This document shows positions 7,223 through 21,053 of a stretch of DNA of 40,063 nt, one piece after another (position 1 is the stretch's first letter; each line of letters opens with the position of its first letter). The translations under genes and the position numbers were made by a program. The stretch is from an uncultured SAR324 cluster bacterium (GTDB lineage: Bacteria > SAR324 > NAC60-12), in NCBI GenBank assembly GCA_902590435.1, contig CACIWU010000008.1, positions 1 through 40,063 of the forward strand, in the 5' to 3' direction. The notes beneath the pieces were generated by a model. That model was not told where the DNA came from. It did no database searches and saw nothing but the letters and a program-made list of their open reading frames with translations.

Positions 7223-7737
7223 TTAATTTTATTTAATTTTAAGTTTTATTTTCATTGATCTAGCTTTGTATTAGTTAGATCATACATATGTGTAATCCGA
7301 ATCTTTTATTAACTTTTTACAGTCAATAAAATTTATCTGGATTTGATTTGCGGCTATGCAATTCAAAATTTTTTTAAAGCATTTAAAAACTATTACACTC
7401 CAGTCTCAACATGAGTCTAACAAATTTTCATAAAAAATAATCTCTAAATTATTATACTAACAAAGTCTGTTTTTTGTAAAAAAATAATACTAAGTTTTCT
7501 AGAAATACTCACTCTAGGCAAAAAATTTATCTCTTTATCATGAAAAATTATTAGAATCATAAATTATAATTTTTTACGTATTTTGAAAATTAGATTAATG
7601 CAATAATAATTTCATAGAAAGAAAATTTTTTGAACTAGAACAAGAAAAATTTTTTGTTATTTTACAAAATTAAATAAAATAAACTAGGAAAAATTAGAAA
7701 ATAATTTAGAGGATGGAATATAATTCTAGGGAAAAAA
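7223..7737. other. Gene-free AT-rich stretch upstream of parC
   Basis: About 515 bp of strongly A/T-rich sequence separates parC from the small peptide gene. I found no open frame with a start, ribosome site or recognisable protein, and no tRNA-like fold. Apart from the inverted repeat at 7256-7282 it shows only homopolymeric A and T runs. It must hold the parC promoter, but no single candidate stands out. Confidence 0.5.
7256..7282 (-). promoter_or_regulatory. Inverted repeat in the parC upstream region
   Basis: Arms TGATCTA (7256-7262) and TAGATCA (7276-7282) are perfectly complementary. Allowing one G-T pair extends the stem inward by three pairs. It lies 34 bp upstream of the parC start codon, where it could be an operator or an mRNA leader hairpin. 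Function is inferred from position only. Confidence 0.35.
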
Positions 7738-7770
7738 TTAATCGGGAGGTTTTAGATCACTCCCGATTAA
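7738..7770 (-). terminator. Rho-independent terminator after the 35-aa peptide gene
   Basis: A perfect 11-bp stem (TTAATCGGGAG at 7738-7748, CTCCCGATTAA at 7760-7770) encloses an 11-nt loop. On the minus strand it is followed directly by six T residues (7732-7737). It starts 10 bp after the stop codon of the peptide gene at 7781-7888. This is the clearest intrinsic terminator in the window. Confidence 0.88.
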
Positions 7771-7780
7771 CATGAAATAA

Positions 7781-7888
7781 TCAGAATCCTTTTCTAATCA
7801 ACAGTTCTTGAGGATTTAAACGATGCAAACAACGAGTACGTATTGCAATTTGCCGAAAAGGATAAAGATTTTTTTTTGTTGCTTTCAT
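7781..7888 (-). CDS. 35-aa cationic peptide of unknown function
   Basis: A short frame starts at an ATG preceded by AGGAG seven bases upstream and ends at a TGA 10 bp before a strong terminator. The peptide begins MKATKKNLYPF and ends NPQELLIRKGF. It carries about ten Lys/Arg residues, one Cys and no obvious membrane segment. A TATAAT hexamer lies 26-31 bp upstream. Ribosome site, promoter-like hexamer and terminator together make a complete transcription unit, which argues for a real gene despite its size. It diverges from an RHH regulator gene whose start lies 156 bp away. I do not recognise it; a nucleic-acid-binding peptide, toxin or leader peptide are all possible. Confidence 0.6.
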   Translation of the reverse strand: MKATKKNLYPFRQIAIRTRCLHRLNPQELLIRKGF

Positions 7889-7913
7889 TTGGTTTCTCCT
7901 GATTTAAAGAATA

Positions 7914-7919
7914 ATTATA
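7914..7919 (-). promoter_or_regulatory. Promoter -10 element for the 35-aa peptide gene
   Basis: A perfect TATAAT on the minus strand lies 26 bp upstream of the peptide start codon, giving a predicted leader of roughly 15-20 nt that would include the AGGAG ribosome site. The -35 region is A/T-rich without a good TTGACA match. Confidence 0.5.
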
Positions 7920-7955
7920 CTATTTTTTAGCTTTAAAAACTAATTTGTTAAAATC

Positions 7956-7983
7956 TTGCACACATCTTGAAAGATATTATAAG
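7956..7983 (+). promoter_or_regulatory. Promoter with internal palindrome upstream of the RHH gene
   Basis: TTGCAC (7956-7961) and TATAAG (7978-7983) are separated by 16 bp. The spacer contains the palindrome ATCTT-GA-AAGAT (7964-7975). RHH proteins bind short palindromes and often repress their own promoter, so this is a plausible autoregulatory operator. The leader to the start codon would be about 55 nt. The assignment rests on position and symmetry alone. Confidence 0.4.
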
Positions 7984-8044
7984 TAACATCGGCAGAATAA
8001 ATAATTTCTTGAGAATATTTTAAGAAGATACGGAGTAACTACCA

Positions 8045-8224
8045 ATGGCAAGAGGAGGTTACCGAGAAGGTGCGGGTAGAAAAAAAGAATATAATGAACC
8101 CGTTAAAAAAATTTTATTAGGACTCCCTGAATCTGTACTAAAGCAGCTTGACACATACGCATCTGCTAAAAACCTTTCACGGCCAAAAGCCATTGCAAAT
8201 CTAGTAGAACAAGCCTCCGCATAG
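8045..8224 (+). CDS. Small ribbon-helix-helix DNA-binding protein
   Basis: The 59-aa protein opens with ARGGYREGAGRKKEY, a basic Gly/Arg tail often found at the start of small DNA-binding proteins. A ribbon-helix-helix fold follows: strand KKILLGLP, helix ESVLKQLDTYASAK, turn NLS, helix RPKAIANLVEQAS. This is the CopG/Arc-type pattern, so it is most likely a dimeric transcriptional regulator. A GGAG ribosome site lies about 9 bp before the ATG. It diverges from the 35-aa peptide gene and has a palindrome in its predicted promoter. RHH proteins serve as antitoxins, plasmid regulators or metal sensors; which applies here cannot be read from sequence. Confidence 0.75.
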   Translation: MARGGYREGAGRKKEYNEPVKKILLGLPESVLKQLDTYASAKNLSRPKAIANLVEQASA

Positions 8225-8276
8225 TCAATTCAAAAAAAGATCTTACATTTATAATTCATGACTTTAAAATTATATT

Positions 8277-8420
8277 TTAGTCTTTTTCTTTAGTTTCCCT
8301 TGAATCAATTTCCTTAAGTTTCTTAAGGGCATCTAGAAAAAGTTTCTTCGATCTCCGTCGTTGCCAATACCCTAAGATAACCATAGAGCAAATCAACATA
8401 ATAATTAAAACAAGTCCCAT
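8277..8420 (-). CDS. 47-aa single-pass membrane protein
   Basis: The small frame encodes one hydrophobic helix (GLVLIIMLICSMVILGYW, residues 2-19) followed directly by QRRRSKK and a charged, probably helical tail (to residue 47). The basic residues after the helix predict an outside-in N-terminus with the tail in the cytoplasm. It lies 84 bp downstream of another small membrane protein on the same strand and converges with the RHH gene. It is not similar to a family I know. The clean membrane-helix-plus-charged-tail pattern supports a real gene. Confidence 0.5.
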   Translation of the reverse strand: MGLVLIIMLICSMVILGYWQRRRSKKLFLDALKKLKEIDSRETKEKD

Positions 8421-8504
8421 TTCAAATATTAAAATAATTAAAATGACATTTTTTTGAGGAAAATAAAAAAGAGCTCAGCCTCCTTATAGATAGAAATGCC
8501 AAAA

Positions 8505-8669
8505 TTAAAAAATTAGTATAATTAATGATATTCCATAGTAAACTGCAATACCTCCGAGAATCCAATTTATCCATCTTGACTGTTCTCCATTTACCTTCTT
8601 ACGATACTTTCTCCAAAGATAAATAGTACAAACCATTAAAAAAACTAATAATATTCCCTTTGGACCCAT
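8505..8669 (-). CDS. 54-aa membrane protein with two hydrophobic helices
   Basis: The frame has two hydrophobic segments (about residues 4-18 and 35-54) joined by a basic loop containing RKYRKK. This gives a small hairpin membrane protein with the loop probably in the cytoplasm. It begins 12 bp after the end of the DUF4254 gene on the same strand, so it is probably co-transcribed with fliN, the glycosyltransferase and DUF4254. No homologue was recognised. Confidence 0.5.
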   Translation of the reverse strand: MGPKGILLVFLMVCTIYLWRKYRKKVNGEQSRWINWILGGIAVYYGISLIILIF

Positions 8670-8681
8670 ATAACTAATTAG

Positions 8682-12345: not shown

Positions 12346-12894
12346 ATGAAGAAGATAATTTTTATTGCTATTGCAACAACAAGCTTGCTTCTTTCAAGTA
12401 CTCAGGCGTTTGCATTATTTTCTGTAAGTGTTGGAGTCCCATTAAATCAATCATTTAGTTCAGGAACCGAAATAGAATCTGTTAGTGGTTCTTTAATTGG
12501 TGTCCAATTACCTTTTGCTTTGGGTTTAGGAATGGATAGTTATAAAACAAAAGTTAAAGATTCCGTTTTAGAATTAGAAACTAGCGTGTATAACATATTC
12601 TATCAGCTTCCCGTTCCAATTGTTAATCTAATTCTTGGTGTTGGCACAGGTAATCATAAATTTGTTTGTTCCGATATTGGAGACGGAAGTTCCTGTTCCG
12701 ATTATTTTGAAAAGGGTTCTATTACTCAGTGGTATACAAGTATCGGACTGCCAATCATTCCATTCTTTGACATTCACCTAAGTTATCGCTCAATTACTTC
12801 AAAAAATGTGGAAGTTATTAAAGGGTCTAGTAAAGGATCAAAATCAGACTTAAATTCAACTGTAACAGGAGTAGGTATCGCATTCAATTTCTAA
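12346..12894 (+). CDS. Secreted beta-barrel-like protein, paralogue 1
   Basis: The 182-aa protein has a signal peptide (MKKIIFIAIATTSLLLSSTQ, ending near AFA at residue 23) and a mature part of alternating hydrophobic strands ending in GVGIAFNF, an aromatic C-terminus typical of outer-membrane barrels. It shares with the next two genes SVGVP, FYQLPVP..NL.LGVGTG, a YFEKGSITQWYTS block and FDIHLSYRSITSKN. Two cysteines flank a short insert (CSDIGDGSSC) and may form a disulfide. AGGAG lies 8-9 bp before the ATG. A hairpin terminator follows. Outer-membrane location is inferred; function unknown. Confidence 0.7.
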   Translation: MKKIIFIAIATTSLLLSSTQAFALFSVSVGVPLNQSFSSGTEIESVSGSLIGVQLPFALGLGMDSYKTKVKDSVLELETSVYNIFYQLPVPIVNLILGVGTGNHKFVCSDIGDGSSCSDYFEKGSITQWYTSIGLPIIPFFDIHLSYRSITSKNVEVIKGSSKGSKSDLNSTVTGVGIAFNF

Positions 12895-12929
12895 AAGGAA
12901 AAATTATAAAGCGTATTTTATCTACAATT

Positions 12930-12962
12930 AAGGGTGCATATAAAATTTTAAAAAGCACCCTT
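12930..12962 (+). terminator. Probable Rho-independent terminator after barrel paralogue 1
   Basis: Perfect 8-bp arms AAGGGTGC (12930-12937) and GCACCCTT (12955-12962) enclose a 17-nt A/T loop and are followed by TATATTATTTT. The long loop and imperfect T tract make it moderate in strength. It separates paralogue 1 from paralogue 2. Confidence 0.6.
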
Positions 12963-13083
12963 TATATTATTTTAAGCTTTAACAAAATTTTATATAAAGG
13001 TAACTTTTAGCTTCTTTTTGTAACAGAAGTTTGCATGTCCTTGCAATTTCAACATTATTTTGGAAGTTCCTAAATATCCGATC

Positions 13084-13728
13084 ATGAAAAAAATCCTTTT
13101 AAATATTTTTATATCTTCTATATTTATTTTTTATAGCACATCTATACTGGCAATTTCAATAAGCATTGGGAGTCCATCTAGCCATAGCTCAAGTGGTTTC
13201 GTATATGATGAAGTTGAAGGTATATATGGAAAACAATCTTATGGAAACGCTATAGATAAACCTAGTGGTTATTTTCTAGGCGTACTATCTACCTATGATA
13301 TAGGATTTGGTATAGATCGTTATACAACAAAATTTAAGACTGGAACTTGTACAGGGTGCTGGGCATCACGTTACAATGCAGGCTTGAAAACTAAAATGAC
13401 TAATATTTTCTATCAACTCCCTATACGTGCTTTAAATATAATAGTTGGCATAGGAACGGGTACTACAGAATATGATTGTACAGTTTGTTCTACTTATTAT
13501 GAAAAGGGTTCTGCAACTCAGTGGTATACAAGCTTTGGAATGTCAATAATATCATCCTTAGAAATACACCTTAGCTATCGCTCTGTTACTGCAAAAAATA
13601 TAACAAACAAGTATACTGATATGAAGGATGATAATAGTGGCACTGTAACAGGTATTGGATTATCATTCAATTTCTCTGGGGGTGATGAAGAGGAATATGA
13701 CGATGACGATGATTATGATGAAGAATAA
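13084..13728 (+). CDS. Secreted beta-barrel-like protein, paralogue 2 (Cys-rich, acidic tail)
   Basis: The ATG at 13084 begins a normal signal peptide (MKKILLNIFISSIFIFYS), so I prefer it to the in-frame TTG at 13060. The 214-aa product has the family blocks FYQLPIRALNIIVGIGTG, YYEKGSATQWYTSFG, EIHLSYRSVTAKN and GIGLSFNF. It differs from its neighbours in having two CxxC-type pairs (CTGC and CTVC) inside loop-like regions and a tail of about 16 residues that is almost all Asp/Glu (after SGG), which follows the usual barrel end. The Cys pairs could bind metal or form disulfides; the tail could bind calcium. No Shine-Dalgarno sequence is visible. Confidence 0.65.
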   Translation: MKKILLNIFISSIFIFYSTSILAISISIGSPSSHSSSGFVYDEVEGIYGKQSYGNAIDKPSGYFLGVLSTYDIGFGIDRYTTKFKTGTCTGCWASRYNAGLKTKMTNIFYQLPIRALNIIVGIGTGTTEYDCTVCSTYYEKGSATQWYTSFGMSIISSLEIHLSYRSVTAKNITNKYTDMKDDNSGTVTGIGLSFNFSGGDEEEYDDDDDYDEE

Positions 13729-14185
13729 ATAAGAAACTCTTCAAATCTACTTTCTAACCAATATAATAAGCAGTTTTTTTAAATTAAAAAAGCTAAACCT
13801 CTAGAAAAAAAATTTTCCTCTTTCAATATAAATCTCTGATTTCCTTCACTTAAAAACAAAGCTTGATTCTAGTTCTTGTGCTGAAGATAATACTGATAGA
13901 TAGTGTTACATTGATTATACATGGATGAGAAGTAATTTGCTTTCTTATGCATATCTTTTTCTCTCTTAATTATGAATTAATAAAATTTTTTGGGTTTAAC
14001 AGCATTAAATACTTCAGCAATTTTGTTAAACATATATTAAGTATAGTTAAAAACTTTTACCATACTAGTACTTTTGATGTACTTTAAAAGTAGAATAAAA
14101 ACGCTCCATTGAGTCATGACTTTTAAATATTGAGCATATAGGTTACAATGCAAAATATTTATTCAACTAAAATCTGGAAACAAAA
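13729..14185. other. Intergenic stretch between barrel paralogues 2 and 3
   Basis: This 457-bp A/T-rich region holds no supportable gene. A minus-strand frame from 14118 to about 13979 (MTQWSVFILLLKYIK...) contains a stop and ends quickly; it may be a relic but matches nothing I recognise. An AGC...T-run / A-run...GCT imperfect hairpin near 13770-13794 could be a weak terminator of paralogue 2. The promoter of paralogue 3 must lie near the right end. Confidence 0.4.
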
Positions 14186-14713
14186 ATGAAAAAAAATTAT
14201 CTTATTCTGCTAGTAGTAGGCAACTTATATCTATTTAGTGCGACCCAAGTGTTTGCAGAACTTTTTTCTGCAAGTATTGGAGTACCAATTTCTCACACTA
14301 TTTCAGATGATACCGTCGCTGAATCAGATGGTGTCAGTGGAACATTTTTGCATGCAAAATTACCTCTAATCCCTTTAGGCTTAGGTATTGAAAGTTATAA
14401 AACTAATGTAAAAAACAATGCTCCATTGAAGATTGCTACAACAATGTTTGATTTATTTTACCTACTTCCCATTCCAATCATTAATTTAACTCTTGGTATT
14501 GGTATTGGAAATGTAGAAGTTGAAGGAGGTTCTGGATTCGAAAGAGGGAGTGCTTCACAATGGTATACTAGTGTTGGAATGCCCATATTACCTTTGTTCG
14601 ACATACACCTAAGTTATCGTTCAATTACAGCAAAAAATTCAAAAGATCAAAATGGTGATAAAATGAATTTAAGCGGAAACGTGACTGGAATTGGTATAGC
14701 TTTCACATTTTAA
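14186..14713 (+). CDS. Secreted beta-barrel-like protein, paralogue 3
   Basis: The 175-aa protein has a signal peptide (MKKNYLILLVVGNLYLFSAT, ending near VFA at residue 24) and the same block order as paralogues 1 and 2: SASIGVPIS, FYLLPIPIINLTLGIGIG, FERGSASQWYTSVGMPI, FDIHLSYRSITAKN and GIGIAFTF. It lacks the cysteines of its siblings. It is close to paralogue 1 in length and sequence, consistent with recent tandem duplication. A hydrophobic-alternating pattern and C-terminal Phe suggest an outer-membrane barrel of about eight strands. Function unknown. Confidence 0.7.
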   Translation: MKKNYLILLVVGNLYLFSATQVFAELFSASIGVPISHTISDDTVAESDGVSGTFLHAKLPLIPLGLGIESYKTNVKNNAPLKIATTMFDLFYLLPIPIINLTLGIGIGNVEVEGGSGFERGSASQWYTSVGMPILPLFDIHLSYRSITAKNSKDQNGDKMNLSGNVTGIGIAFTF

Positions 14714-14726
14714 AAATATATTTGCC

Positions 14727-15386
14727 TTGAATAACAAAATATCAAGAATTTTTCAAACAATTTGGTTTTTTTCGTATGCTGTTGTAGGATCTATAATCCT
14801 GCCAAGTAATGCAGATGCTCAATTTATGGGATTTAAAGTTGATGCCGCTATAGCTTATTCTGCTGCTCCTGGAAGTGTTTCCGGAGGCGCAATTGGAATT
14901 ATTCATCCTGTTCCATTTTTCCCAAATATTGGTTATTCAAGTATAAAATTTGAGGACAAACAAGAAGTTACTGATGCAAGTGAAAGTACTTCTTCTGTCA
15001 TTCTTACAACAGACACTACAATTAATACTTTTAATTTTTTTTATTACGTTCCCTTTCCAGTTGTAACAATATCCGTTGGAATTGGGTTAGGTCAAGACAA
15101 TCTTAATACGGGAATGGAAACCAAAACAAAAATAGAAGAAACATTTGAAAACAGTGAACAAACACCTGACAACAGTATTATAAAAACTTCTGTTTCTGAA
15201 ACTTTTATCCATATTGGACTCCCTTTCTGGAATACTATAGAATTCCATCTAGGTTACCATCTCATGTCTGTAAGTAAGATTGATTTAACTAGCAAAAAAA
15301 GTACTTCTTTGCAAGGAAATTACAATATTAGTAAGAAAAACTACACCGGAGGAATGACCACTGTTGGATTTCAAGTTGCTTTTTAA
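14727..15386 (+). CDS. Secreted beta-barrel-like protein, divergent paralogue 4
   Basis: A TTG start gives a 219-aa protein whose first 33 residues form a good signal peptide (ending near ADA). No internal ATG would keep it, so the TTG is preferred despite a poor ribosome site. The family layout is recognisable but worn: FNFFYYVPFPVVTISVGIGLG, HIGLPFWNTIEFHLGYHL and a final TVGFQVAF. It lacks the QWYTS block. It follows paralogue 3 by 13 bp and overlaps the next gene by one base (TAATG), so the two are probably translated from one mRNA. Confidence 0.6.
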   Translation: MNNKISRIFQTIWFFSYAVVGSIILPSNADAQFMGFKVDAAIAYSAAPGSVSGGAIGIIHPVPFFPNIGYSSIKFEDKQEVTDASESTSSVILTTDTTINTFNFFYYVPFPVVTISVGIGLGQDNLNTGMETKTKIEETFENSEQTPDNSIIKTSVSETFIHIGLPFWNTIEFHLGYHLMSVSKIDLTSKKSTSLQGNYNISKKNYTGGMTTVGFQVAF

Positions 15387-16063
15387 TGTTTTCTTCACCT
15401 TTTCCGAATTTCATTAGTTTTATTTGTAAAGATCTTTCTTTTACAAAAAACTATAATTTACTTCCTGAAGAAGAAAAGATAGTAGCATCATTTGATTCTC
15501 CAAAAAGGAAGGCAGAATTTATAATGGGTAGGGCTGTTTCCCATTTAGCACTAAAAAAATTTAAACTTGAATCTATACCTATTCTAAGAAACATTAACAC
15601 TCGTGAACCATGTTGGCCTAAATCTGTTTTCGGAAGTATTACTCATTCTGGGAATTTAGCAGCAGCAGCAGTGGGTTTAAATAGTAAAATTGCAGGTATT
15701 GGTATAGATTTAGAAAAATTATCTAGAAAAATAAATTTTGAAATAAGTCGTCATATTTGTGTAGATAATGAACTAAAATGGCTAAAAACACTTGACCCAG
15801 AACAAGCTAAATTAAATCTTAGAATTATTTTCTCTGCCAAAGAATCTATTTTTAAATGTTTTTTTCCAATATCAAGGAAACACCTTAATTTTAAAGATGC
15901 GTATATAAACATCAATGAAAAAAAGTCAGAATTTACTTATATACTTTCAACTGCTTGTTCCAATATTACTGATGTTGGATTTAGTCACAAAGGTCATTTC
16001 TCGGTAAAAGATGACTTCCTCTTGACATCAACTTACATAAAAAAATATCCGTTTACTGAATAA
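15386..16063 (+). CDS. 4'-Phosphopantetheinyl transferase (EntD type)
   Basis: The 225-aa protein has the phosphopantetheinyl transferase signatures: GSITHSG..AAAA (83-96), GIGIDLE (104-110) with the magnesium-binding Asp/Glu, and FSAKESIFK (149-157). It transfers the phosphopantetheine arm of CoA to a Ser on a carrier protein. The layout is that of the EntD branch, which serves siderophore, polyketide or polyunsaturated-fatty-acid carriers, though in some bacteria it also serves the fatty-acid ACP. No carrier-protein gene is nearby. The ATG shares one base with the preceding barrel gene stop. Confidence 0.85.
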   Translation: MFSSPFPNFISFICKDLSFTKNYNLLPEEEKIVASFDSPKRKAEFIMGRAVSHLALKKFKLESIPILRNINTREPCWPKSVFGSITHSGNLAAAAVGLNSKIAGIGIDLEKLSRKINFEISRHICVDNELKWLKTLDPEQAKLNLRIIFSAKESIFKCFFPISRKHLNFKDAYININEKKSEFTYILSTACSNITDVGFSHKGHFSVKDDFLLTSTYIKKYPFTE

Positions 16064-16346
16064 ATATTTTATATTTATTTGTTACATTAAATTTTTATTA
16101 ACTTAATTACAAAAATCCTAAAACAATTATTTCAATTAAAAAATTATTTTTTATATTAATATTATTTCAATTGTTCACAAACAATTATTATTGGGTTTTA
16201 TGTATAATTTTGGTAAGTTATTGTTTGTTGACATTTTATCAACACTTTATCAACATCACTTAAAAAACATTATTATCAATTAATTCAATCAATTTACTTG
16301 TAATCAACAACTTATCAACATTACTAATACTAATAATAAAAAAAAT
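16064..16346 (+). other. oriC: Candidate replication origin (DnaA-box-like cluster and DnaA-trio-like run)
   Basis: This extremely A/T-rich region lies directly before dnaN. TTATCAACA, one base from the DnaA box TTATCCACA, occurs at 16236-16244, 16247-16255 and 16312-16320. Near matches are TAATCAACA (16301-16309) and TTATCAATT (16273-16281). The boxes form two pairs, each with 11-bp spacing (16236/16247 and 16301/16312), one helical turn. Three bases after the last box, CTA ATA CTA ATA ATA (16324-16338) fits the DnaA-trio pattern, with T in the middle of every triplet. A perfect repeat AATTGTT-CACA-AACAATT lies at 16169-16186. Alternatively it may only be a DnaA-regulated dnaN promoter. Confidence 0.6.
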
Positions 16347-17468
16347 ATGGAAATAATTTTAAATAGAGAATTATTATCAGATGCTCTTCAAAATATTAAT
16401 TCTGTTGTTGATAAAAGTTCAACTAAGCCTATTCTTTCAAATTTTGTTATGAGGACATTGGAAGGAGAAAAAAGTAAAGTTGAGTTTTCTTCGACAGACT
16501 ATGAATTATCTTTAGTAGAGAAAATAGATGCAGAAGTCAAAGAAACAGGTAGTATTTGTGTTAATGCTAAAAAAGTTTTCGATATAGTTAAAGAACTGAG
16601 AGATGATAAAGTTTATATTAGATCAACGGAACAACTTTGGATTCATATTACATGTGGCTCTTCTGAATTGAGACTTCCTTCCGTAGAAGTAGGTTTATAT
16701 CCACAAACGGTTTTAGAAGAACTTCCAGAATCTTTAAAAATTTCAGTTGAGGATTTTAAAAGTTGTATTGACATGACTTTGTTTGCGGCTATGACAAATG
16801 AATCGAGAAGGAATTTAATGGGAGTATGTCTAAGTTTAACAAGTGACCAAAAGACTCGTTGGATTTCAACAGATGGACATCGTTTAGCTCAAGTAGTTAT
16901 GCCCGTTAAAGAACAGGTTTTTAGTGAGGGCAAGGAAGTAATAATACCTAGAAAAGCATTGACGGAAGTAAGAAGAACGGCTGATATTTTTGGAAAGATA
17001 GTAAATATTTCTTTTGATTCACGTGTTATGCAGTTTTCAGGAGGAGATATAACATATAAAACTAGATTGATTGAAGGTAAATTTCCAAATTGTGATCCAA
17101 TTATTCCAAAAGACAATAATCTAGAAATTTCAGTAAATAGAGAAAGTTTTGTAAATTCTTTGAGAATTGTTTCATCAATTAGTATGGAAAAACTTAGACC
17201 GGTGAAAATAATTTTTTCTCATGGATTATTAAGATTAGAAAGCGAAAAAGCTGACTATGGTGAAGTAGTAGATGAAATAGAAGCTGGTTATGAAGGAGAA
17301 AATTTTCAAATAGGTTTTAATTCAAGATATTTGTTAGATGTCTTAGGAGTGATTGAAAGTGATGAGATACTACTTAACTGTAAAAACTCTATGAGTCCAA
17401 CAATCATAAAATCTCCGAGAGATGAGTCATTTATATCTGTAATTATGCCACTAAGAGTCGAATGGTAG
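16347..17468 (+). CDS. dnaN: DNA polymerase III beta subunit (sliding clamp)
   Basis: The 373-aa protein is a full-length beta clamp with three repeated clamp domains. Recognisable segments include NREL...AL..INSVVDKSSTKPIL at the start, WISTDGHRLAQV near residue 172 and a C-terminal SFISVIMPLRVEW, close to the invariant PMRL-type ending. It forms the ring that tethers DNA polymerase III to DNA. It begins the dnaN-recF-gyrB-der series immediately after the candidate origin. The leader is A-rich without a Shine-Dalgarno sequence. No dnaA precedes it. Confidence 0.97.
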   Translation: MEIILNRELLSDALQNINSVVDKSSTKPILSNFVMRTLEGEKSKVEFSSTDYELSLVEKIDAEVKETGSICVNAKKVFDIVKELRDDKVYIRSTEQLWIHITCGSSELRLPSVEVGLYPQTVLEELPESLKISVEDFKSCIDMTLFAAMTNESRRNLMGVCLSLTSDQKTRWISTDGHRLAQVVMPVKEQVFSEGKEVIIPRKALTEVRRTADIFGKIVNISFDSRVMQFSGGDITYKTRLIEGKFPNCDPIIPKDNNLEISVNRESFVNSLRIVSSISMEKLRPVKIIFSHGLLRLESEKADYGEVVDEIEAGYEGENFQIGFNSRYLLDVLGVIESDEILLNCKNSMSPTIIKSPRDESFISVIMPLRVEW

Positions 17469-17536: not shown

Positions 17537-18604
17537 ATGAAAATTATAAATATTGAGCTCATTCAATTTAGAAACTATTTAAAATTTAATACAGAACTCT
17601 CACCAAAATTAAATTGGATATATGGTTCCAATGGACAAGGAAAAACAAACTTAGTTGAATCAATCCACTACCTATGTAACTTGGAATCCTTCCGAACAAG
17701 CAAAACATCTAATTTAATACAGAAAAATAAGTCAGAAACTGTAATTAATGGTCTTATTGAACGTAGTGATTTTAAGCATTCTGTTCGTATAAATGTATCT
17801 AAAAAAGGTAGACAAGTATTATTAGACAATAACCCAGCTTATCATGTTTCTGAATATATTTTTTCCTTTATGTCACTTGCATTTACTCCAGAAAGTGTAG
17901 GTCTATTCAAAAGTACTCCTCAGGAACGTCGTAAATTTTTTAATAAAATTATTTCTTTTCTTAATCCAATTTATTTTAAAGATCTTCAGGAATGTAAAAA
18001 AATAATTATTCAGAAAAATGCTTCTTTACGAAGTGGTAGTATTGAACAAATATCTATTTGGAATAAAATGCTTGCTCGTTATTCTATAAAATTGATGGAA
18101 CAACGAGTAAACTTTGTTGAACAAGTAAATCTTTTTTTACACGATCTTTTCACAGAGCTATCGGGACGATCAGAAAATTTACGTTTGATCTATGAACCAT
18201 CTCTTAATTCAAAAATTTTTGATGAAAAATTTTTTTTTGAACAACTTGAAAAAAATCAGAAAAAAGAATTGCAACAAGGGTATTCTATTCTCGGACCGCA
18301 TAGAGATGAATTTCACTTAATGATGAATGAACAAAAAGATAGAGATTTTTTTTCACAAGGAGAGTTTAGAATAACTAATTTGTCTTTAAAAATGACTATT
18401 AATCATTTATTATATAAAAAGTACAAATTTCACCCCGTTTTGATTTTTGACGACCTTCTTTCAGAGTTGGATGAGGAGGTAGTTAATCACGTTATTAAGG
18501 TATTGATAAAAGTAAATAATCAAATATTTATAACATCTACCTCTAAACCATCATATTCTTTACCTGGAAAATGTATTAAAATTGAACAAGGGATGCATGT
18601 TTGA
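17537..18604 (+). CDS. recF: DNA replication and repair protein RecF
   Basis: The 355-aa SMC-like ATPase has Walker A GSNGQGKT (30-37), a signature-like segment FFSQGEFRITNLSLKM and Walker B/D-loop LIFDDLLSELDEE near residue 300. RecF helps load RecA onto gapped single-stranded DNA with RecO and RecR. The start is ATG 68 bp after dnaN. A small hairpin (CTCA...TGAG) lies in that gap. Its place between dnaN and gyrB is the classical one. recA itself is 17 kb downstream in this window. Confidence 0.96.
   Translation: MKIINIELIQFRNYLKFNTELSPKLNWIYGSNGQGKTNLVESIHYLCNLESFRTSKTSNLIQKNKSETVINGLIERSDFKHSVRINVSKKGRQVLLDNNPAYHVSEYIFSFMSLAFTPESVGLFKSTPQERRKFFNKIISFLNPIYFKDLQECKKIIIQKNASLRSGSIEQISIWNKMLARYSIKLMEQRVNFVEQVNLFLHDLFTELSGRSENLRLIYEPSLNSKIFDEKFFFEQLEKNQKKELQQGYSILGPHRDEFHLMMNEQKDRDFFSQGEFRITNLSLKMTINHLLYKKYKFHPVLIFDDLLSELDEEVVNHVIKVLIKVNNQIFITSTSKPSYSLPGKCIKIEQGMHV

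Positions 18605-18644: not shown

Positions 18645-21053
<2,409 letters not shown>

Follow-up and report, generated by a model that had tools for sequence, protein, structure and literature searches.

The window analysed here is a 40,063-nucleotide stretch of DNA from an uncultured SAR324 cluster bacterium (contig CACIWU010000008.1), whose genome assembly consists of 106 contigs and is 54% complete. Its central part has the gene order phosphopantetheinyl transferase–gap–dnaN–recF–gyrB–der, in which the gap is a 283-bp intergenic region (16064–16346, no strand assigned). The gene upstream of it (15386–16063, plus strand) encodes a 4′-phosphopantetheinyl transferase (PptT-like match, E = 1.7e-28); it lies outside the candidate origin, and its 3′ end precedes the same region in relatives. 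Directly 3′ of the gap, also on the plus strand, are dnaN (16347–17468; DNA polymerase III beta clamp, TIGR00663, 268 bits), recF (17537–18604) and gyrB (18654–21053), replication-gene neighbours of the kind expected of a chromosomal oriC. The dnaN product matched 14 loci at 75–82% identity; the majority of these are labelled SAR324 or Lambdaproteobacteria, and the others bear broad names.

Two other parts of the window were also recorded. Four consecutive same-strand genes at 12346–15386 encode small secreted proteins of 182, 222, 175 and 219 aa, which resemble one another, are probably beta-barrel proteins and are apparently tandem paralogues; among the three scanned for family matches, only the last gave even a weak one. 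A stretch of about 1.4 kb (7223–8681) carries no long gene, and a short ORF within it (about 8042–8224, plus strand, start MARGGYREGAGRKK) has a product that looks like a small DNA-binding protein.

DnaA boxes in the intergenic region

The initial annotation had proposed a chromosomal origin next to dnaN, with three copies of TTATCAACA and two near matches. The three exact copies were present, all on the plus strand: box B (16236–16244), box C (16247–16255) and box E (16312–16320), the last being TTGTCAACA in most relatives, with a mean column identity of 97%. One near match, box D (TAATCAACA, 16301–16309, plus strand), has a single mismatch to TTATCAACA and forms the first box of the putative unwinding pair. 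The second, TTATCAATT at about 16272, has two mismatches, and the strict count is therefore three exact boxes and one near match. A further exact copy of TTATCAACA is located on the minus strand within dnaN (16406–16414).

The two box pairs described earlier were found as well, with a start-to-start spacing of 11 bp in both (16236/16247 and 16301/16312). Box A (16225–16233, plus strand) is degenerate in the window (TTGTTGACA), whereas most relatives have TTATCAACA or TTGTCAACA at this place. Judged from the aligned sequences, the upstream pair B–C belongs to an array of three boxes, A-B-C, phased at 11 bp, and makes up the two thirds of it that are better preserved in the window. An AT-rich spacer (16256–16300) separates the two box groups and is the least conserved of the longer parts of the core (74% mean identity).

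The gap was shuffled 20,000 times with dinucleotide composition preserved. The result showed that neither three exact boxes nor two 11-bp pairs arose in any shuffled sequence (means of 0.03 exact boxes and 0.0008 pairs), while 0.2% had four boxes with at most one mismatch, in agreement with the view that the arrangement goes beyond base composition. In the organism's own assembly (54% complete), TTATCAACA was not enriched genome-wide (40 copies versus 39 for a reversed control), and at least three exact boxes stood together at this site only, as the predicted clustering had it. No better cluster appeared elsewhere: in the 860-kb contig of the relative G005 the densest one lies at dnaN. A box pair with at least three trios was found at no other place in the 40-kb window; on the G005 contig it was confined to the DNA upstream of dnaN. 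Thus, in the own assembly and in the relatives there is a single DnaA-box cluster per genome, as a chromosomal oriC requires.

The DnaA-trio run

Box E is followed by the 3-nt spacer TTA and, as first noticed in the annotation, by the run CTA ATA CTA ATA ATA (spacer and run, 16321–16338, plus strand), the bottom strand of which reads 3′-GAT TAT GAT TAT TAT-5′. With ATA interspersed, the trios of the window are less perfect than the CTACTACTACTA of many relatives. The run ends 8 bp short of the dnaN start codon.

Pelliciari et al. (2021, PMC8287927) defined the basal origin unwinding system (BUS) by three elements: one DnaA box or a pair of them, no more than 16 bp of spacer, and a series of three or more NAN trios. 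Opening needs both boxes and trios, as shown with DnaA from several phyla; a box is accepted with at most two mismatches to TTATCCACA, or as a tandem pair with at most two and at most four, and 3′-GAT-5′ is the commonest trio beside the box (PMC8287927). In the window, box E (TTATCAACA) has one mismatch to TTATCCACA and box D (TAATCAACA) two. The first trio lies 3 bp from box E and 14 bp from box D, and five consecutive 3′-NAN-5′ trios follow the spacer, or six when the spacer is counted. The first trio after the spacer, CTA, is 3′-GAT-5′, and relatives have a GAT run. The region 16064–16346 has every sequence feature by which a BUS-type bacterial oriC is defined.

Conservation of the region in relatives

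Fourteen same-genus intergenic regions, including that of the window, were aligned. The alignment showed three conserved blocks, namely a 20-bp element, the box array, and boxes D and E with the trios; column identity was 90–97% in boxes D and E and the trios versus 74% in the AT-rich spacer. In the same-genus relatives, a box, 2 nt, a second box, 3 nt and CTACTACTA stand directly before dnaN. A search of 41 genomes of the order with the box-2 nt-box-3 nt-trio pattern (up to three mismatches, with an exact version also run) found it in 13, all of the same genus, once each and always just before dnaN; the reversed control pattern had no match in the 41 genomes.

In the second genus, g2 (five genomes, counting G042, in which the contig stops and only the end of one box is present), the boxes are TTTTCGACA pairs and the trio is kept, with CTACTACTACGACTA followed by dnaN. 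In four g2 origins (L026, L027, L145 and L146), TTTTCGACA boxes are numerous; they are spread in both orientations over about 350 bp upstream of dnaN and often stand as 11-bp tandem pairs. CTA-rich trio-like runs were also seen at the dnaN start in the sister families in which dnaA lies beside dnaN. Boxes and trio are thus kept directly before dnaN within the genus, and their place is retained when the box sequence changes in the second genus; both were predicted to recur in relatives if the site is an origin.

The 20-bp element and the inverted repeat

The conserved 20-bp element AACAATTNNTRTTGGGTTTT (16180–16199, plus strand) has a mean column identity of 95% in the genus. Matches to it were found in 14 of the 31 family genomes, all of the same genus and with one oriC copy each, and three of these 14 have one additional looser match elsewhere. 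Its distance to the box array is free of gaps throughout the genus except for one base in one sequence. A role as terminator of the upstream gene was considered and is not favoured: the hairpin with T-run is good in L011 and L019 (−6.8 kcal/mol) and weak in L012 (−3.9) and in the window (−1.0), where terminator prediction called none. Because sequence and spacing are kept, and not pairing, a DNA-binding site appears more likely than a terminator; the element may be a site bound by a protein, or else the remains of a terminator.

The perfect 7-4-7 inverted repeat that had been noted upstream of the boxes, AATTGTT-CACA-AACAATT (16169–16186, no strand assigned; arms 16169–16175 and 16180–16186), does exist, but it was discarded as an origin element, given that relatives keep AACAATT and not the palindrome. 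Inverted repeats are common in this AT-rich gap, with 20 pairs listed.

Location of dnaA

The initial annotation had also suggested an origin separated from dnaA. Consistent with this, the one DnaA match of the own genome sits on another contig (C46). In the family of the window (f1), dnaA and dnaN are found on separate contigs, in many cases far from the ends of long ones (G021, G022 and G005). Families f2 and f3, of the same order and class, have dnaA immediately 5′ of dnaN, and the two genes are roughly 140–400 bp apart in most genomes with both on one contig. It follows from this distribution that dnaA moved away, the origin remaining beside dnaN.

In the relatives examined, the 350 bp preceding dnaA contained no marked box cluster (in the own genome this region is cut by the contig end), and skew did not switch near dnaA in samples from contig C4 of G005. 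In relatives (L072, L077 and L079), dnaA is preceded, at about 350 bp, by a conserved stretch in which no ORF is obvious, GAGGCCAGTCTGG ... CATTCCATGGACAGG, possibly an unknown RNA or control element; Rfam gave no match in the window or in three dnaA loci. One genome, G010, encodes a second, canonical DnaA (500 bits; L055) on a 10.7-kb contig (C69) besides the genus-type DnaA, which is probably assembly contamination.

GC skew around dnaN

Cumulative skew was computed on long contigs of relatives, the own genome being fragmented. A minimum near dnaN, which would be expected of an origin, was observed in three relatives and not in two others. It lies 0.4 kb from the dnaN start in G022 (169-kb contig; skew left/right of dnaN, −0.09/+0.05), 2.2 kb from dnaN in G021 (307-kb contig; −0.03/+0.05) and 3.4 kb in G008 (129-kb contig; −0.03/+0.06). 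It is 69 kb away in G005 (860-kb contig; −0.03/+0.01) and not at dnaN in G016 (+0.02/+0.04). In the window itself the values are −0.07/+0.06. Mean skew was lower to the left of dnaN than to the right in all six sequences, with a sign change at dnaN in most relatives. Skew is weak in the SAR324 clade and, in the window profile, locally tracks gene strand. On balance, GC skew supports the dnaN site without proving it.

The DnaA protein of the genus

The DnaA product of L009 (1444–2925, minus strand) was a single clear homologue (5e-88; 294 bits versus a curated cut-off of 343.9) with Walker A and B present. The sensor-2 site was read from an alignment with B. subtilis DnaA (RELEG) that has no gaps at this point. 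The sensor-2 arginine (E. coli Arg334) is replaced by Gly in 14 of 14 same-genus DnaA proteins, with Arg at the next position (dnaA loci including L069–L083); Cys or Ser occupies the site in g2, g4 and g5, and Arg is kept in g3, g6, g7, f2 and f3. At the arginine finger (E. coli Arg285), the own genome has Ile, and the remaining 13 proteins have either Arg or Lys; g2 carries Lys at this site and g3 carries Gln. E. coli DnaA requires Arg334 to hydrolyse ATP intrinsically and to have this hydrolysis regulated, though not to form a functional initiation complex; Arg285 is required both for intrinsic hydrolysis and for assembly that depends on ATP (PMC5742627). These substitutions provide a lead towards a weakened ATP switch in the DnaA of the genus, although the shifted arginine could partly substitute for the sensor-2 residue. 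No Hda above the cut-off was found in the 41 genomes, a weak result since only 1 of 14 control genomes passed that cut-off.

The box-reading motif of domain IV is G-RNHST in 11 of the 14 same-genus proteins and G-RDHST in the other three (G001, G005 and G008); relative to GGRDHTT, one residue is deleted and the first Thr is changed to Ser. The SAR324 box differs at position 6 from the E. coli consensus TTWTNCACA (PMC5043019). DnaA residue 433 appears to co-vary with this position (N or D with A; S with G in g2), which is only a lead, and the f2 genome G030, with T and TTATCAACA, is a counter-case.

Discussion

Taken together, the boxes, the trio run, the conservation and the shuffles make it very probable that 16064–16346 is the chromosomal oriC of this SAR324-clade bacterium, built as a BUS. 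The proposal of an origin next to dnaN is thereby supported, with boxes and trio kept at this place in the genus and found once per genome. By analogy with characterised origins, DnaA, whose gene lies at another chromosomal site, would bind the phased array A-B-C and the pair D–E. It would then be passed from box E onto one strand of the adjacent trios (3′-GAT/TAT-5′ repeats) and polymerise there, whereupon the AT-rich stretch immediately preceding the start codon of dnaN would open and helicase loading would follow. We infer these steps, from binding through polymerisation on the trio strand to strand opening and helicase loading, from that analogy.

DnaA doubles as a transcription factor, and the region could instead be a DnaA-controlled promoter region for dnaN-recF-gyrB, with replication starting elsewhere. 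The boxes stand directly before dnaN and could also regulate it, and the trios overlap the dnaN 5′ untranslated region. However, such a promoter requires neither a trio nor a single occurrence per genome, whereas the trio is conserved as strongly as the boxes and skew changes at the dnaN site in most relatives; promoter-like matches (9 versus 5.2, sd 2.5) were not clearly above chance. A promoter without origin function is accordingly unlikely. Less likely still is that the true origin moved with dnaA and left a relic at dnaN. Origins frequently adjoin dnaA, which here is on another contig, but the relatives examined showed neither box cluster in the 350 bp before dnaA nor, in the G005 samples, a skew switch near it, and the dnaN site is clearly under constraint. 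A chance cluster, for which the AT-richness of the gap and its many inverted repeat pairs might speak, has a negligible probability, being at odds with the shuffles and already refuted by conservation at genus level.

The candidate oriC was compared with known origins. It shares with the B. subtilis BUS the same-orientation tandem boxes, short spacer and trios whose middle A, on the strand that is bound, is conserved, as well as AT-rich DNA after the trios and dnaN downstream (PMC8287927). It differs in its box (TTATCAACA instead of TTATCCACA), in having only 3 nt, with no GC-rich spacer, from the last box to the first trio, in its non-adjacent dnaA, and in the distance of 8 bp that separates the trios from the start codon of dnaN. 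Cyanobacterial origins (e.g., Cyanothece ATCC 51142) reportedly also lie next to dnaN with dnaA elsewhere; this arrangement is shared, but phylum and boxes are different and the arrangement is independent. In epsilonproteobacteria, a lineage-specific box, with a conserved change to T at position 5, goes with a lineage-specific DnaA domain IV (PMC5043019). SAR324 likewise pairs its own box with its own domain IV, but the change is at position 6, from C to A (G in g2).

No paper on a SAR324 origin was found in the literature searched. This origin is of an ordinary type, new for the SAR324 clade; the lead worth following is that of the DnaA changes. A tentative reading of the sequences, which we consider possible but rather doubtful, is that, in this family, the departure of dnaA from the origin was followed by a re-wiring of the initiator: residues for hydrolysis were lost (the sensor-2 arginine in g1 and some other genera; the arginine finger, which is variable, in the own genome), and the box-reading helix changed together with the box (TTATCAACA, or TTTTCGACA in the other genus). 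If so, replication timing could not rest on the switch from DnaA-ATP to DnaA-ADP known from E. coli, and would be set otherwise, such as by box affinity, DnaA supply or the 20-bp element. With dnaA at or away from dnaN, boxes of the TTATCAACA or TTTTCGACA type, and DnaA with and without the sensor-2 arginine, these genomes form a natural series for testing how initiator and origin co-evolve. An evidence-based origin is now available for the SAR324 clade, which is widespread and uncultured; the position of this origin allows growth rates to be estimated from read depth in ocean metagenomes and genomes to be oriented correctly.
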